From: Pyrenula massariospora | Taxonomy: Eukaryota; Ascomycota; Eurotiomycetes; Pyrenulales; Pyrenulaceae | Length of the DNA: 64,000 bases | Reading direction: 5' to 3' | Assembly (NCBI GenBank): GCA_021030905.1 | Contig: JAGFMI010000005.1 | Span: 1,984,001 to 2,048,000, forward strand | In this document: piece by piece, positions 3,629 to 64,000 of the stretch | How the letters are laid out: each line of letters opens with the position of its first letter | Position numbering within the stretch: position 1 is the first letter of the stretch | The notes under the pieces: model-generated | The model's input: the letters and a program-made list of their open reading frames with translations, nothing else | What the model was told of the DNA's origin: nothing | The model's database searches: none | Translations under genes and position numbers: made by a program

Positions 3629-4429
3629 GCAGAGAATTCAATTGAGGTTCATTCGAACGTGTCGATAGTGACCGAGGGGCTGAAGAAGAGCTGAAGGTCC
3701 TTCCAAGGCAGAAATTGCCCGTGGAGGGCGTGTTCGCATTTTGTGTCGCGGCGGTCGAGGACCGCCATCTCGAAGCAGATGATGATCTTGATTCGCAGTC
3801 GTACTGCATGGCCGCATTTCACCAAGTCTAGAATACGATTGACAGGGGAGGTGGTGGCCGGGTGCAGGCAACGCAGCAGATACAGGGGCAGCCCACCAAT
3901 TGAGCGGTGGGTTGGCTGGCGAGCGTGCATCGGAAGTCGTTGCTACGAGCCCTTGGCGGCGCCACCTCCGCCCGAGCACGGTTAGGCCGGGGCCCCGATC
4001 TTAATAATAGCAGGTCCTGTCCGCTGTGCCCCTCAACTCTGCAGATTCTCGCCTCGCCAGCCATCGATAAGGTAGAACCAAGCAAAGCTAGGAATCTTTT
4101 GAGCCCCGGCTAGCCCAGGAAAGCCCAACTCAGGTTAATCTGGAGCCATGTGCAACATCCAAAGTCGGCCATTCAGCTCCCAATTCGCACAGGATGGCGC
4201 GCAGCTGGTTGTTACACACGACACCCTTACCACGGCAGGAGCCTGGGAGCCTCGGCCACCAGCAATCTAACGTCGTCTCCTGCCGGCCTCACGATCGTCG
4301 TCATCTGTCATAGAAGTTTCCAACGGTGCCACCGCCAATGAGACAACAGCCACAACGTCCACGGTGAAGCGGGACGCGCTCGCTCATGAGGAGCCTCCAG
4401 GAACGGTCTAATGCTTCGACGCAACGACG
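3629..4429. other. Intergenic between divergent permease and WD40-like gene
   Basis: GC-rich region between two divergently transcribed genes, likely holding both promoters. Several long open frames occur on both strands (for example 3638-3979 and 3907-4113), but their Arg/Pro-rich composition is what high GC content gives by chance. No gene is called. Confidence 0.5.
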
Positions 4430-7400
4430 ATGGCATCTCCAGCCTCGTCATCGTCGCTGTTTCAGCGACTGGTCAATGTCTGGAGGCTCTTATCGCTACG
4501 ATGTGATGTCGACAATGTGCTCTTGGAACTGCTCGGCCAGTTTTCCATGGAAAAGATTTATGCCGATGGCGACAACGACACATATCAGAACCTGGTGACT
4601 GCCTGGTTGGCGCAGCTCAACGCCATCTTTTACATCCAACGAATGTCGTTGCCGTCCGGCGACGTGCAGCCTGAGCGGTATTTGGGGTTTCTGGCCAGCT
4701 GGGAGGTGATTGCTCGTGTGATAGAGTTTACTGCACAAATAATAGCGGAGGCTAAAGAAAAGCTATGGGATGCCCCGCTAATAAGAGACAAATATCTTCC
4801 TCAGGCATTACTGTCCATGCTCCGAGTGCTTCTGCTCCACCCGAAAGCGCCATCAAACCAGCGGGCAAAGGAACGACGAGCTCGTTTTTCACGCATTCAT
4901 AGTTCCCTCGAGCGCGTCTATGACACGTATCCCGCGCCACGATCATTCTTGCTATCGATCTGCAGAGACATGACGACTTATCTTTGCACGAATCCCGACT
5001 TACTCGAGCTACCACCGAGGCTGAAGCAGGAGCTACCGACTCTGGCATCGAAAATGGTATGATACATTCGTCAAGTGCTAAAGGTGGAAAGCTTCTGGAG
5101 ACTAATTTGCTTTGTCATACTTAGTACCCTCTACGAAACTGTCTCTCCTCGCAATACGTTTCGACCATCGTACCACCCGACGATTATTCAGGGAGCTGGT
5201 TGTCGCAATTCCTAGCACTTCGGGACGTTTTACATTTCCTCGTTGGCGCATCAATCCAATACGTTGTCTATCAAGAGACTAGTGACATGCGCCTTCTGAC
5301 GTCTTCTGCCAAGACCCGCAACGCTCTCCTACGAGCTCTTGACAATATGCGCCTTCCACCACATTTGTCCAAGCAAAATTTGATTGCCTCGTTCACTTGT
5401 TACCTCCGAATGGTTCTTCCAGACACTCCGATGCTCCCTCGACGGGAGGCTCCATTATACCAGGTCGACGAGAATGAAATAGACGCATTGGATGATCTTT
5501 GTCGGAAATTTGAGGATCGTAATATGATACAACGTGTAAGCGATAGGGAAATGATGCATGGCATCTCAGAAATTAAGCGCAGCATTGCACTTGTGGATGA
5601 TCCTACTGGCCATTTCAGCTCTCCTTATCCAACACTATACGCACTGAACTGTCAGAACTGTCATGTCGCCGGTGGTTCTCAGCTAAGATCTTTTGACGAG
5701 TTTAAGCTGCCCGTAAGTCCCTCGCTCCTCAACTCTTCCTATCAATCTTCTTTGCCAGGTTGTCCTGCGATACGTCGATCTAGCATTCAACAATCAGCAA
5801 GCTAATCGGATTATTAACACAGCTCGATCCTCATGAACCAACCCCATCAAGCCTCCCAGCATCCAAATGCGTCTACTGCGGAGAAGTTGTCACAAAGGTG
5901 CAGGAGATAGCACTTGTAAGATACGCCTGGGAATTGCTGAAGCCTATCGACTATAACATGGATACAATTGGACTTGAGAGACACTTGCCGACACGGTTCC
6001 AACTGATGCCCCCAAAGTCCGACCTTCGTTCAGCGTCAAATTCAGAAGAAGTCAGGATGCATCTACCAGATGCGGATAACTTGAGCCCGATTGCCGTGAG
6101 TCCAACAGCTACCGAGTCTACACTACCCTTTCAGAGTGGCCAATCCACGTCTCCATTAAGTATCCCGTCTACTCTAGATCGCTCCCGAAGCGTTCCCGAT
6201 ATTCTTTCACCACCTCGGTCCCCAGGTCTCCGCCTGGCCTTGAGTTCACCGCTAAGCGACCAGTTTCCCTCAGAAGGCTCAACGTGTCTGGATAAATCCT
6301 CCCATGACGACTTGAAGAGCTCGCCACCAAAGATGCGGCCTCCGCCTCTCCGGAGGCCAACGTTGGATCTTCCGCTCTCACCTATACCATTCTCACCTGA
6401 CACTGTAGGTCCTCCGATGGATTTCCCGTTCCAACCCTCGCCGATTCCCGTATCCGAGTCCGTCCAATTTCCCAAGATCGATCTGGCTTCGCCGCCAGCA
6501 CCACTGGAGAAGCGTCGATCCAAATGGAGATCAAAGCTTACGATCTCTCGAAAAGATTCAACCACGGCCTCGAGGGACTCAAGCTCACTATCGTCCTCGA
6601 CTCTTGAATCTCAAAAGCTTGAAGAAATTGGTTTGGATGGCTTATTGAGAGCCTCGAAAGCTGCAGCACGAGCGAAAGTCTCTAAGAATGTTAATGTGGC
6701 CCTCTCACAGAATTCGACATTGGCGCTCTTCTGGACGCAACCACTCGTACATATTTGGGACGTTGGATCATCTCCCCCTCATATGATTAGGTCAATCGCG
6801 ACACAGAGCAGCTGTGTTCTGGCGGCAGTGACAAAGGTCTATCTCGCCTACGTTGTAGGAACTAGGGACCAGAAACTCACCGTGAGTCATTAGACCACAT
6901 AATTTAGCCTAGGCTTTACACTGACGAAACCAAACCAGTTGCGAATCGTCAACCTTATTCAACAGTCAGTTCCCGTGCTCGAGTATAGAATGCCATCATC
7001 CCTCTGGTGCAGAAGTATTGCTATCTGCCCTAAGGAAAATTGTGTCGCCGTTGGCTTCGATAAATCTATTGTTCGATTGTACAGAACAGAAATGACAGCA
7101 GAGCCTCGAGAGGATCGCCTGCACAGTCGCTACCATCGAGATTGTAGAGACTGTCCTCCAGTGGAAACTCTCTCATTTTCAAGTGACGGGCTTGCCCTTC
7201 TTGCCAGTACTAGGAACATTAAGACTGGTATAGTACAATTGTTTTCATGGCAATTTCCCTTTTTAGAATTTCAAGAGCATATATCTTGCCGATATCATGT
7301 GCCCTTACACGAATCGGAAGACAATGGAGTCTCTTCGGCTAGTTATCGCTCCAAGTCTGGAGGGGAAGAAGACTTGATCTGCGTCACCACTTGGACGCAG

Positions 7401-58633: not shown

Positions 58634-59792
58634 TTACTGGCAAACACACGACCCAGGTCGAGGGTTCGCACTGCCTGATGTAATTGTCACAACCACAGCA
58701 GCATAGCTGTAAAATCATCGTTAATCCTATGAACCCTGTTCAAAGGAGTATATGCACTTACGCAGCTCCAGCAACTAGAACTTCAATAGTTCGCGCTTTC
58801 GTTAGCAAAGCAACCGCAAGCACAAACATTGCTGAGGCTAAGGCAGTGACAGTAAGGCGTGCTTTTGAGTCTGTTATCAAGTCCAGGATCATGATTGGCG
58901 TAATCAGAATGGACATTACCACTGTACTCATCAAGGCTCTACTGACAGCAGTTAATTTAGGACTAAATACGAACACATGCTCATCACTAGTGACTTTTCG
59001 TCTTCCGTAACATGCCAGAGCTCGAAATACCTACAGCTTCATTGCTTAGGAGGGTTTTTGGAAGCGCTTGACTGTCGAGAATTACTTACTATACCCGCCC
59101 TGCCATGCATCCATACTAAGATGTCTGTCAAGCCGCTCTCCACCATTGATATTGTGGAATCACCGAGGGTGACGAGGCTGAATAAATCCTGCTCGTGCTC
59201 CAGGTAGGACGATTCGGTTCGTGAGATGCAAGAATTGCCTTGAATCCAGTATTGTAGACTTCGAATATCACGTTTTCGTGCTGAAGAGAGGCTCAGCCAA
59301 CGTTGATTTTGTTCGAGCAAAGCATCTCTCGATGTCAAAGACCAGTCCAATTTTCCATATAACTCTCTTACCATATTCTTGCAACCTATTTTGGAGCTTC
59401 GTGAAAGTATTTTGTCGTGCCCTGTTTGCATCTCTCTGGACACATCCAAGGAATAGAGGGTTCTTTTCCCCGACGTCAGATTCATCCAGCTCCTTCTCCA
59501 GCAGAGATATTTCGCACTGCTTCTGTAGAATCATTCGGGTTCGGATACGTGTGAAACGTCGGTATATCTGAAAGTCACTGTGACTGCTGAGAAGAGCAGA
59601 GTATCTCGGGTATCCCTGTCTGAAGTGGTCCACTACAATGTTATTAGAATTAAGGAAGCTAAGCCCTTGACTATCGTCTGTAAAGCCGTCGACTAGTAAG
59701 CTTACAGTAAAATTCAGTGTCTCGATGAGCTGGTGAACTATCCATGGCATTCGACTTTTTTGCTCCGCTCTACCTGCCTGTGCAAGCTGCAA
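58634..59792 (-). CDS. DUF6594 membrane protein
   Basis: Fungal-specific family of unknown function with a soluble helical N-terminus and three C-terminal membrane spans. Four exons. An apparent frame jump near 59390 is explained by a 46-base GTAAGAG...GAGAG intron joining LQNRLQEY to DALLEQNQRW, which restores the family motif. A second intron joins GRAGI to VFRALACYGRRKVTSDEHVF, and a third joins the last span to AAYAAVVVTITSGS, ending at 58634. Family marks: YPRYSALLSSHSDFQIYRRF, the QKQxEIxxLExELDE motif (LLEKELDESD), then the spans LMSTVVMSILITPIMILDL and LTVTALASAMFVLAVALL and a third near IEVLVAGAAYAAVVV. The upstream boundary is uncertain (Met at 59792 used). Such genes are often found in fungal accessory regions near HET and NLR-like genes. 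Confidence 0.82.
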
Positions 59793-60828: not shown

Positions 60829-63086
60829 TCAACGAGATTGTATCGACACTCCTTCACTTAGCTTATCCACCACCGTAAACTTGAAAGTCTGATCCAAATT
60901 GCTTTCCGCCTGGTCATCAATAGTTATCCCAAAGTTCATATCCAGGCATCTCGCAACAGCGTCACCATAGGTGCTACCGGCGTAGAATTTCAAACGATCA
61001 TTCACAGCGTCTCGAAGGGAACCGGTCATGTTGTCCACTTCTATGTCTTTCTTTCTTTTGGGATTGGCAATTGCAGTGGCTTCCTCCCACAATCCAATCT
61101 CTAATAGCACTACTCCGAGAGAGTAGAGGTCGTGCTTCTTCTTATGGCCCTCACGAGACGGTCCTTGTCTTGATGTATGGCGATATACGTCTCTTTCGAC
61201 ATCTTGTACATAGCGGCCTGTAGATGGAGCGAGACTCGGACGAGAATATTCAAACCCTCCAAGAAACGGGGAGAAGTAATCCAGGCGAGTCGATCCCTGT
61301 TCATAGAAGAGAAGTATGTCATGGCTGCTGATCCCTTGATGAACCCAAGCAGTAATATGCCACTTCCAGACTGCCTTTGCCAGCATCGAAGCCATTGTCA
61401 GACGTTCCTCTAGACTAGGTCTGCCAGCTTTTCTCGTCGCTCTAATTGCCTCGTGTAAGGACACACAAGACCCTCCTTGGTACGTCATCGGGATATCAAA
61501 ACGCAGAACGAAGCGATGACTCGATTCATCGTGAACCCAGGAGGAGAATGGAAGGCTACGGAAATCAGTTGGCTTTGGAGCAGAGAGAACAGTGGCAAGC
61601 TTCATAACATGGTTCTTAGACTCCTCAGTAATCTGCGGATCTTGCCCTGGATGATAGTTCCTGAATTCAAGAAGCTTCGAGCCGGCTTCAGCACTTACCG
61701 CTTGCATCTGTCCGTGCATGCTAGGAACAGCAGAATCTTGAATCATTCGTTTGAGTATGAGAGGCTGCAAGCGGTCCATATGCTTCGAATCTTGAGCAAT
61801 CAAGATTTCATCAATCTTTTCTCGACCTTCAGTATCAGAAGCCGATAAAAGACTGTCAGCCACAATATCGAGACATTCGGTGTTGGCATGATCCAGCTTC
61901 TTCAGCAAGCTCTCTGCTCGTTCTCTGAGTATGGCGGCATTTTCTAAGTTGCACTGGTCTGATTCTTTTACTTCTGACGATACAAGCTCCAAAATATGAT
62001 CCCATGCTTCAAGTATATTGCGTTGCCTATCAGTACTGAAGGATTCAGTATCCTTTGGGCTCTGACCGATATTTATCATCATCTCAGAGGCTTCCTTGGT
62101 ATCCTTCATGACATCTTCAATGGTGATGCCGGAGACAGACGTCGGCACGTACCGCCCAAGCCAATTGCCGATGGAGTCGACAAGGGTATCAATCTTCCCA
62201 TCTTTAGAGTGCCTTTCAAGACTTAATCTTAAATGGATGAAAAAGCCTGCGTCTTCAAGTCTTGATATCTTCGCGTTGTAAGGCCGCAATATGATACTTG
62301 TCGATGACGATGAACTTAGAAACGGCGTAGTGATGAGGTTTGTCTCTCTCTTCGCAAGGCGATCATGCAATTCAGTGACCACCACTTCTGTTTTCGTCCG
62401 GACGAGTGTGCTGCACAACTTCATCACAGCCTCGGTAAAGGATCCAATACCCGGGCTAACTGTGCCTTGTTCCATGCCAGCGGCCGCCAGGATCTGAATT
62501 TGATTCTTTTGATCTCTGTTCCTTGCAGCTTGAGCAGCAAAACAACAGTCCAGTATCAAAAGGACATCAGCCTTTGCTCGTCTCAATTTGGGTTGGATTT
62601 CGTACCATTGTACCGCAGGGCCGCCTTTGGCCTGGCTTAAATTTCTATCATTAGCACAGAGAAGGTTTGGATAATCAAATGGAACCTTGCTTACGCCGCC
62701 CAGACCGACCTCCTCTTCTGCCCCTTCGTGCGATCTGCATCTTCATCTCCATGACCACCATAATGAATAATGATCAAAGCAGAATTACGATCGCTAGCTC
62801 GGCGGTTGACGTCTCCAATACTTCGGCTGATAAATGCATCTAATACTAGATGACTTTCCTCGGAAGGAATGGGGAATTCTTCTGAGTCAGTGTACTGGAA
62901 CCACTCTTCCAGAAATCCTCGAAATTTCTGAGACTCCTTGCGATAGTCTTCATTTCCATCTTGCCAATATAATACAATTACTTTGACAATCTCGTATGTA
63001 TCATAATGGGGCCTTTTAAGCCGTTCCGCAAGTTGTTTCTTAATCTCAAGGCTATCAGCTTCTCCTCCACTCATGTCTTGGTTCAC
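60829..63086 (-). CDS. Caspase-like protease fused to a pseudokinase domain
   Basis: Two exons, 63086-62695 and 62635-60829, joined in phase (SVWA to QAKGGPAVQWYE); 732 residues. The N-terminal 1-240 is a caspase-fold (peptidase C14, metacaspase-like) domain: IVKVIVLYWQDGNEDY, the catalytic His in IIIHYGGHGDED (108-113 for HYGGHG) and the catalytic Cys in VLLILDCCFAAQA (about 161-162). Between 240 and 450 is a helical linker. Residues about 450-720 resemble a fungal kinase-like fold: the HRD region reads WVHQGISSHDILLF (about 561-574), lacking the catalytic Asp, and the helix after the activation segment is HDLYSLGVVLLEIGLW (about 632-647). No glycine loop or DFG is evident, so it is called a pseudokinase like the C-terminal domains of prion-inhibition (HeLo-linked) fungal proteins. 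A Met at 63074 is an alternative start. The protease may be a cell-death executor controlled by the pseudokinase (inference). The frame is intact. Confidence 0.85.
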
Positions 63087-63730
63087 CTGGACAAGTGATA
63101 CACAAGAAGCACTCTGACGATCAGCTGTCAGCCCCTGAGGTCAGATGGGCTTGTTCAGTTGAAAAGTGGAATATTGGAATCCACTCATCAGACTCTCGCT
63201 GCCTTTGTTAGTGATGCCGTAGCACTCGGAGGCTACAGGACGGAGGAGCAAAGTTTGCTTCGTTATGTTCAGGTGTTAAGAAGCTGAGTCTTGGCTCGAT
63301 GGATGAGTGTGGTGCATCGTCCGTTGAATTTACTTGTCTCAATCTAGCAAGCCTAGCCACGCCAGTCTTACGTTCTCACACTAGCGCGCTCAAGGTACAA
63401 GTAGTACCAAGTTAGGTACAAAAGTCGTTCAAGGTGCCGGGCGCTTACCCTAAAAAGGTAAGATTCTATTAAAATTTAAACGTCCTACACTACCAAAATC
63501 ACGAATGCCGAATACTTCACCAAGGATTGATCTTGCAAAAATAATTTCTCTTGGAACGCAATGTCACGAGTGTGCGTTGCAAATCAGGGTTTAGCCCTGA
63601 ACCTTGGTATCTTGGCACTTGCGTATCTACTCGCTGGAGCCCGCCAGCAGGCAGCCGGCTGATAAGAGCTCCATAGTAACAATTCAGCCATACTAGCACC
63701 CCTGTATTTCGCACCAAGCCATTCACTTAA
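63087..63730. promoter_or_regulatory. Shared upstream region of the caspase-pseudokinase and kinase genes
   Basis: 644 bases lie between two divergent starts, so a shared or adjacent promoter is likely. One short minus ORF (63517-63726) has no motif. A near-direct repeat of GTAC-containing words (caaggtacaagtagtaccaag, about 63392-63412) sits mid-way. No factor site is assigned. Confidence 0.5.
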
Positions 63731-64000
63731 ATGCAGACTGATTCAAGATCTATTCGTCGCTCTAAGCTGGAGCTCACAACAGTTGCAAGCAGTATACTTA
63801 CCCAAGATTCCACTACTCTCGGGTCTATCTTGGAGCACTTCCGTAAGAACAATATACCAGGGCCTTTCGTTCTAGAAGACTGTCACAATGGAGCGGTACA
63901 TCTTGGAGAAGGCGGGCAGTTTTCCGTGTATGGTTATCAAGCAGATGTTTCGGAAAATTCCACCGAATTTGACGGACCATTCTTGGACGAGGCTAAGCAG
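63731..64000 (+). CDS. Protein kinase-like gene, N-terminal part (runs off the window end)
   Basis: Open frame of 90 codons from the Met at 63731 (MQTDSRSIRRSKLELTTV) to the window edge. At residues 57-66 it carries LGEGGQFSVY, a glycine-rich ATP loop of the form G-x-G-x-x-S-V found in fungal kinases of the GxGAQFxVY type, preceded by the helix SSILTQDSTTLGSILEHF. The catalytic Lys, HRD and DFG would lie beyond base 64000. It is divergent from the caspase-pseudokinase gene, which suggests a functional pair, for example an active kinase plus a pseudokinase-linked protease. The assignment rests on the loop and context. Confidence 0.6.
   Translation, partial: MQTDSRSIRRSKLELTTVASSILTQDSTTLGSILEHFRKNNIPGPFVLEDCHNGAVHLGEGGQFSVYGYQADVSENSTEFDGPFLDEAKQ

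Follow-up and report, generated by a model that had tools for sequence, protein, structure and literature searches.

A stretch of 64,000 nucleotides from the ascomycete Pyrenula massariospora (contig JAGFMI010000005.1, positions 1,984,001 to 2,048,000 of the forward strand, or G000:C29:1984001-2048000; hereafter the window) carries near its end two divergent genes. Gene C joins a caspase-like domain to a kinase-like domain of the DUF7580 family with degenerate catalytic motifs, and gene K, which continues past the window, codes for an ankyrin-repeat protein kinase. The pairing of such pseudokinases with kinases was confirmed to recur beyond the window locus, an observation larger than first noted. 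Taken together, the data lead us to propose, with confidence evenly balanced between belief and doubt, that genes C and K form a recurrent two-gene module in which a repeat-bearing sensor kinase would act on a pseudokinase switch to release an effector, resulting in cell death or defence.

Linkage of kinase and pseudokinase genes

All linkage counts refer to the genome that contains the window (37.8 Mb, 33 contigs). Its introns, its HET and HeLo genes and the organisms in which homologues occur point to a filamentous ascomycete. When it was searched with the kinase half of gene K, the seven best-scoring loci all had a gene C-like neighbour within 5.5 kb. Nine of the 26 K-like loci (27 rows, 26 after merging two window rows) had such a neighbour within 10 kb, and 8/25 did once the window was left out, against 0.32 expected. 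From the pseudokinase side, 16 C-like loci were defined (25 rows, from which seven caspase-only rows were removed and in which two row pairs were merged), and 13 of them had a kinase matching PF00069 within 6 kb (Fisher 6e-7; binomial without the window locus 1.4e-14, both assuming independent loci). The PF00069 scan scored 124 of 205 candidates, gave at least 137 rows at no fewer than 107 loci and missed the kinase of C2; with this kinase, taken from the gene K search, 14/16 loci are paired within 6 kb: C29 (the window), C4, C9, C3, C32a, C5, C15, C2, C22, C30, C32c, C12, C32b and C10. The unpaired loci are C1 and C29b, and the kinase found 8 kb from C29b, by eye an unrelated one of the PKA type, was left out of the count.

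None of the 18 other DUF7580 loci (27 rows less nine belonging to the 16 C-like loci) had a kinase within 10 kb in either kinase search, and none of the 16 HeLo loci lacking a C-like pseudokinase (20 rows less four in paired loci) had one within 10 kb. The absence of a PF00069 kinase within this distance at the 18 loci rules out canonical DUF7580 proteins as being of the same kind. The members of this unpaired group that were aligned (15/18) have few kinase motifs and matched PDB kinases (IRAK4) only at E ~0.04; by sequence, the group may be a branch of the same fold in which decay has gone further. According to the open reading frame (ORF) coordinates, six of the 14 pairs are divergent, six tandem and two convergent; linkage is conserved and orientation is not, and this distribution rules out a shared bidirectional promoter as the cause of the linkage.

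Effector exchange, repeats and co-variation

The N-terminus of the pseudokinase differs between loci. It is caspase-like at C29, C4 and C9, a HeLo domain at four loci (C3, C12, C32b and C10), a second protein kinase at C15 and C2, and probably a SesB-like hydrolase or lipase at C5, recognised by eye from GHSLG and FFGSPHRG with no such Pfam match. No effector was matched in the ORFs examined at C22, C30, C32c and C32a. The kinase-pseudokinase fusion at C15 and C2 provides a Rosetta-stone hint that both kinds of domain may act together. At C15 a TPR kinase gene (G000:C15:644033-647882) adjoins this fusion, ~4.5-8.4 kb from the contig end. In addition, C12 and C32b each have a patatin-like phospholipase gene (PF01734; L056:3053-4441 and L058:5276-5998) in the middle, with the HeLo-pseudokinase on one side and the kinase on the other, and are thus three-gene clusters.

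Repeats were found on ten of the 14 partner kinases, ankyrin on seven (C29, C4, C3, C9, C32a, C30 and, by similarity to the gene K repeats, C5) and TPR on three (C15, C2 and C22). The repeat ORFs of C9, C15, C2, C3, C32a, C4 and C5 were assigned to the kinase by position, being downstream on the same strand. The kinases of C12 and C32b showed no repeats at E<=0.01, that of C10 was examined in part, and that of C32c lay outside the repeat scan. The catalytic-loop Asp, Lys and Asn and the DFG Asp were kept in all eight partner kinases aligned (of 14), which are only 23-35% identical to gene K.

Furthermore, the similarity matrices of kinases and pseudokinases over the 14 pairs were correlated (Mantel Pearson 0.855, permutation p 2e-4; 0.80 without C12 and C32b), with the kinases of C30 and C32c represented by only 140 residues. 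The nearest relative was the same for both proteins in 10/14 pairs. Some pairs look like recent duplicates, namely C12 with C32b, and C30 and C32c with C22.

Gene C

The original prediction read gene C as one intact gene with a 732-residue product, the start of its neighbour lying 644 bases away. The gene is real, but HYGGHG and DCC lie in different frames that are joined by a predicted 50-nt intron, whose removal restores the frame of the caspase-DUF7580 family. The predicted product is 731 aa, plus the stop codon; the ATG is at 63074 and the stop codon at 60829-60831. The neighbour is divergent as described, but the distance from ATG to ATG is 656 bp, 644 having been counted from an upstream GTG at 63086. 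All splice sites of genes C and K are predicted from sequence. The features of the region are as follows.

62695..63074, minus strand: gene C exon 1, start of the caspase-like domain including HYGGHGD (predicted from sequence)
62645..62694, minus strand: gene C intron, 50 nt, GTAAGC...GCTAATGATAG, with a GCTAAT branch-like site and TAG acceptor (predicted)
60829..62644, minus strand: gene C exon 2, remaining caspase-like domain (DCC), middle region, pseudokinase and stop
62275..63074, minus strand: caspase-like (Peptidase_C14-type) domain, residues ~1-250, intron inside (profile and alignment; below the Pfam cut-off)
61708..62274, minus strand: middle region, residues ~251-439, mostly helical in the model of homologue P0001
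60832..61707, minus strand: DUF7580 pseudokinase, residues 440-731 (Pfam, alignment and predicted structure)
63075..63730, no strand: divergent intergenic stretch, 656 bp, from the gene C start codon to the gene K start codon
63731..64000, plus strand: first 90 residues of gene K with the LGEGGQFSVY glycine loop, continuing to G000:C29:2050983 (L005:6983)

An open frame of 636 codons has a chance expectation of ~6e-10 at the local base composition, which, together with 27 similar proteins, excludes gene C being a chance open frame. These proteins were found in a search of 5.8 billion proteins at E<=1e-3, in which the best 7,997 candidates by shared words were scored. There are at least 27 homologues; in 25 the match, at 28-39% identity, extends over 74-99% of gene C, and in 19 of these over at least 92%. 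The remaining two matches cover 26 and 29%, by eye the caspase part. Sources include Viridothelium, Xylaria, Aspergillus, Lachnellula, Clonostachys, Cercophora and Alternaria, which we take to represent several orders of Pezizomycotina. Because of this spread, the caspase-pseudokinase fusion is, as judged from its homologues, an old family and no local accident. No prokaryotic or viral relative was confirmed among the pattern stretches obtained from genome_contigs (32) and viral_contigs (14).

The union of a caspase-like domain with a degenerate kinase-like domain held up in the family alignment and, for the DUF7580 part, in the Pfam comparison. Gene C matched DUF7580 (PF24476) with 35 bits, above the cut-off of 27; 21/26 family members matched it at E<=0.1. 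In the alignment of 26 sequences the catalytic His was kept in 21/22 and the Cys in 23/23 of the rows reaching each site (His108 at 62751-62753 and Cys161 at 62542-62544 in gene C), and HYGGHGD was invariant across nine aligned sequences. Peptidase_C14 (PF00656), in contrast to DUF7580, stayed below its cut-off, with 15.8 bits against 21.4; for this reason the domain is named caspase-like here and is not assigned to PF00656. Two homologues, P0010 and P0018, are annotated with PF00656, which 11/26 members match at E<=0.1 (best 2.2e-6). Four PF00656 matches occur elsewhere in the genome (C11, two on C27, and C13), all outside the gene C locus, and the C13 protein scored 80 bits against the caspase profile of the gene C family. 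In P0026 and P0027 the same caspase-like domain is seen, by eye, with other partners, namely a von Willebrand A domain (PF00092 is annotated for P0027) and an alpha/beta-hydrolase part, and it may thus itself be a mobile module.

On the pseudokinase side, HRD reads HQG (61333-61341) and DFG reads GFE (61249-61257) in gene C. Throughout the family the HRD Asp is replaced by Gly or Ser (26/26) and the DFG Asp by Gly (26/26), the motif being GFE in 17 and GFD in nine. Likewise, C5 alone of the 14 paired paralogues of the genome has an Asp at the HRD site, and every one of the 14 has Gly for the DFG Asp. The kinase fold expected for the C-terminus was borne out by the predicted structure, and the DUF7580 part is thus modelled as a protein kinase fold with dead catalytic motifs. 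The ten best PDB matches of the gene C family profile were all MLKL (best E 4.6e-5), whose pseudokinase carries GFE in place of DFG. Foldseek and VIA-align searches with the pseudokinase gave no MLKL chain among the 50 matches listed in each, and the 50 matches listed for the whole protein in Foldseek were all kinases, so that the structure search speaks to the kinase part. The N-terminus of gene C is the caspase-like domain, and the MLKL-type four-helix bundle is absent there.

Gene K

The prediction that the divergent gene is a kinase was upheld once it was read past the window end. Gene K has three predicted exons (3731-4905, 4965-6796 and 6838-6983 of L005, which is G000:C29:2044001-2054000) and a product of 1,050 aa, with Pfam matches to Pkinase (59.3 bits) and ankyrin repeats (Ank_2, 67.3 bits). 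Its motifs are intact: the glycine loop from residue 58, AIKR (110), HNDIKPDN (239), SDFG (264) and APE (289). With residues 1-560 as query there were at least eight matches, two of them named fungal proteins and the others bacterial-type or unnamed kinases; one of the fungal matches is an ankyrin-repeat kinase of Chaetomium (31% identity over 39%). Residues 535-745 gave 22 matches, four of them strong (50-60% identity), metagenomic and without a species name.

Neighbouring genes

A HET (heterokaryon incompatibility) gene lies ~7 kb downstream of gene K (L006:3668-4762; G000:C29:2057668-2058762), and a DUF6594 gene is found on the minus strand at window positions 59268-59792, ~1 kb past the 3' end of gene C. 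On the same contig, at G000:C29:893021-896515 (L029:1-3495), a 1,165-aa ORF combines DUF7580 with what by eye is a trypsin-like His/Asp region; it probably codes for an SltB-like pseudokinase-protease at a locus separate from gene C, and no kinase was found within 6 kb of it.

Relation to described systems

When the pair was first described, no named system of this kind was put beside it. This stands in so far as no paper on kinase/pseudokinase pairing as a general system was found in the open-access literature searched, from which most subscription papers are omitted, and DUF7580 is named in no paper of that literature; but a single discussion sentence in the available part of PMC4557415 states that Aspergillus nidulans pskA, a pseudokinase gene, is divergently transcribed to ffkA. 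FfkA is described as an ankyrin-repeat kinase, as are related kinases of other filamentous fungi (excerpts of PMC3591445). The pskA/ffkA pair (AN7985/AN7986) therefore resembles the window pair in having a pseudokinase gene divergent from an ankyrin-repeat filamentous-fungal kinase, and the architecture and neighbourhood of gene K fit the description of FfkA, whereas no protease or effector is reported for pskA in those excerpts and gene C has its caspase-like domain; both likenesses are of description, not of sequence.

SltB of A. nidulans, a pseudokinase with a predicted serine protease acting in the pathway of the transcription factor SltA (sections of PMC4557415), is like gene C in combining pseudokinase and protease in one protein and in being confined to Pezizomycotina. 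Its protease is Ssy5-like, predicted and C-terminal, whereas that of gene C is caspase-like and N-terminal, and a kinase adjoins gene C whereas those sections mention no neighbouring kinase for SltB.

In RIPK3-MLKL an active kinase accompanies an executor fused to a pseudokinase with GFE in place of DFG, an arrangement that the window pair resembles by its motifs, but the proposed executor domain of gene C is caspase-like and no RIP kinase was among the PDB matches listed for gene K. HeLo, which sister loci carry, is described as a fungal domain related to the four-helix bundle of MLKL (parts of PMC12881547). Fungal metacaspases (Peptidase C14) share with gene C the His/Cys dyad in HYGGHG and DCC; gene C differs in its fusion to a pseudokinase and in its score below the PF00656 cut-off.

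Fungal two-gene death clusters (het-S/nwd2, or gasdermin with a CHAT or S8 protease), as far as the accessible accounts go, are like the pair in being small, linked and equipped with interchangeable effectors. They use NOD-like receptors (NLRs), amyloid templating or gasdermin cleavage, whereas the window pair, with no Pfam match to NB-ARC or NACHT at E<=1 in either product, places a kinase where the sensor would be and has a pseudokinase for the proposed switch. According to the available portion of PMC12881547, fungal cell-death systems are often clusters of two or three genes, their sensors bear ankyrin, TPR or WD40 repeats, the proteases of gasdermin clusters may be fusions with kinase-like domains, and a number of HELL domains are part of a kinase or pseudokinase. 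The effector classes of fungal NLRs include HeLo-like, SesB-like, patatin and kinase domains (PMC10197012 and PMC9815663, in part), and in the portion consulted of PMC12258605 protein kinases are treated only as domains inside NLRs.

Proposed mechanism and alternatives

The two-gene module proposed above starts from what the loci display: their anatomy, the linkage and co-variation of the two genes, the swapping of effectors, the catalytic residues kept in the kinases and in the caspase-like domain, and the dead motifs of the pseudokinases. Sensor kinase, pseudokinase switch and effector are the simplest interpretation of an effector joined to a dead kinase beside an apparently live kinase with protein-binding repeats; ankyrin and TPR repeats also occur in fungal NLR sensors (PMC12881547, in part). 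Gene K would be the sensor and activator, its ankyrin repeats probably binding a guarded host protein or a ligand that signals stress or non-self, and gene C would be the executor, in which the pseudokinase switch normally restrains the caspase-like protease. On activation, gene K would phosphorylate or bind the pseudokinase, so that the protease is freed or clustered and cleaves a substrate, with regulated cell death or a different defence output as the result. In the sister modules the same kinase/pseudokinase switch would control HeLo domains, kinases or the probable lipase. Linkage and co-variation suggest that kinase and pseudokinase are functionally linked; a link via phosphorylation is suggested by analogy with RIPK3-MLKL (PMC12881547, in part), and cell death is suggested by the effector classes of the sister loci. 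The original prediction of a kinase-controlled cell-death protease unit has thus gained own-genome linkage and one published parallel, pskA/ffkA in the excerpts cited, but its death and phosphorylation steps stay conditional.

Several points weigh against this reading. Sensing, phosphorylation, effector release, protease activity with its substrate, and cell death are all steps that we infer. The 16-locus class was drawn up from resemblance to gene C when the adjacency was already known, and hence not blind, some pairs are duplicates while the p-values for linkage take loci as independent, and linkage of the caspase version is known from this one genome. The rank-based Mantel test was weak (Spearman 0.18, p 0.06; 0.24, p 0.05), and four pairs (C9, C3, C5 and C32a) have a kinase and a pseudokinase whose nearest relatives do not agree. 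In addition to the PF00656 score of gene C below cut-off, a caspase-only profile matched no PDB chain at E<=1, and a profile including the non-caspase paralogues had IRAK4 as best PDB matches, with MLKL first at rank 28. The closest PDB kinases of gene K are CAMKK2, CAMK1 and CHK1 as a single sequence, and IRE1, LRRK2 and CHK2 for a profile of eight partner kinases; RIP kinases were absent from the matches listed in both cases (60 of 69, and 60 of 1,670 for the profile). No gasdermin (PF04598) match was found in the genome, with a model that may miss fungal gasdermins. As for the described systems, PskA is said to have no identifiable actual kinase partner, by which a similar parental kinase is meant, and SltB serves in cation-stress signalling, not death (both in the sections available of PMC4557415), and the ffkA deletion appears in the published list as viable, no phenotype being given (PMC3591445, in part).

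These last two points lend themselves to another interpretation, which we regard as rather unlikely: that the pair serves stress signalling in the manner of SltB, the kinase modulating the pseudokinase and the caspase-like domain cleaving a transcription factor or signalling protein while the cell survives. SltB itself, with its pseudokinase and predicted serine protease in the SltA pathway (PMC4557415, sections available), the apparent presence of an SltB-like gene in the genome (its protease part by eye) and the viable ffkA mutant without listed phenotype (PMC3591445, excerpts) are in its favour. Against it, HeLo at four loci, the probable SesB-like lipase at one and the neighbouring patatin at two belong to NLR and death effector classes (PMC10197012, in part), and the SltB-like locus lacks a kinase within 6 kb.

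Tight linkage with variable orientation fits selection for co-inheritance better than a shared promoter, and could also be expected of an allorecognition or selfish killer-antidote locus with co-inherited alleles, gene C being the toxic partner and gene K its control. The HET-domain gene ~7 kb downstream of gene K and the frequency of two- and three-gene clusters among fungal death systems (PMC12881547, in part) are consistent with this, but an immune module predicts the same linkage, and we consider the idea unlikely.

The caspase-like domain could also be a scaffold or regulatory fold without protease activity, gene C signalling by assembly only, as the sub-threshold PF00656 score, the match of only 11/26 members at E<=0.1 and the lack of a PDB match for the caspase-only profile might suggest; the dyad, needless in a dead scaffold, is however kept (His 21/22, Cys 23/23), which makes this improbable. 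Finally, linkage by descent only, with one ancestral kinase/pseudokinase neighbourhood copied many times and no joint function, would suit the recent-duplicate-like pairs (C12 with C32b; C30 and C32c with C22) but is very improbable, as linkage holds at 14/16 loci with aligned partner kinases only 23-35% identical to gene K, orientation has changed, effector domains have been exchanged and no kinase lies within 10 kb of any of the 18 other DUF7580 loci.

Implications

A wider proposal, which we put forward tentatively and with more doubt than conviction, is that filamentous ascomycetes may possess a large unnamed class of NLR-free immune or death modules, in which a repeat kinase would be the receptor and a DUF7580 pseudokinase the universal switch on a caspase, HeLo pore former, lipase or kinase, bringing apoptosis- and necroptosis-type executors under one RIPK/MLKL-like mechanism. 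If the two-gene module operates as proposed, fungi would control death executors in a second way besides NLRs and amyloids, through a kinase sensor and a pseudokinase switch with interchangeable effectors. A common function would be gained for DUF7580 proteins and for the orphan Ffk-type kinases with ankyrin repeats, and the pair would offer a tractable system for RIPK/MLKL-type switching and for the question of whether it is ancestral or convergent.

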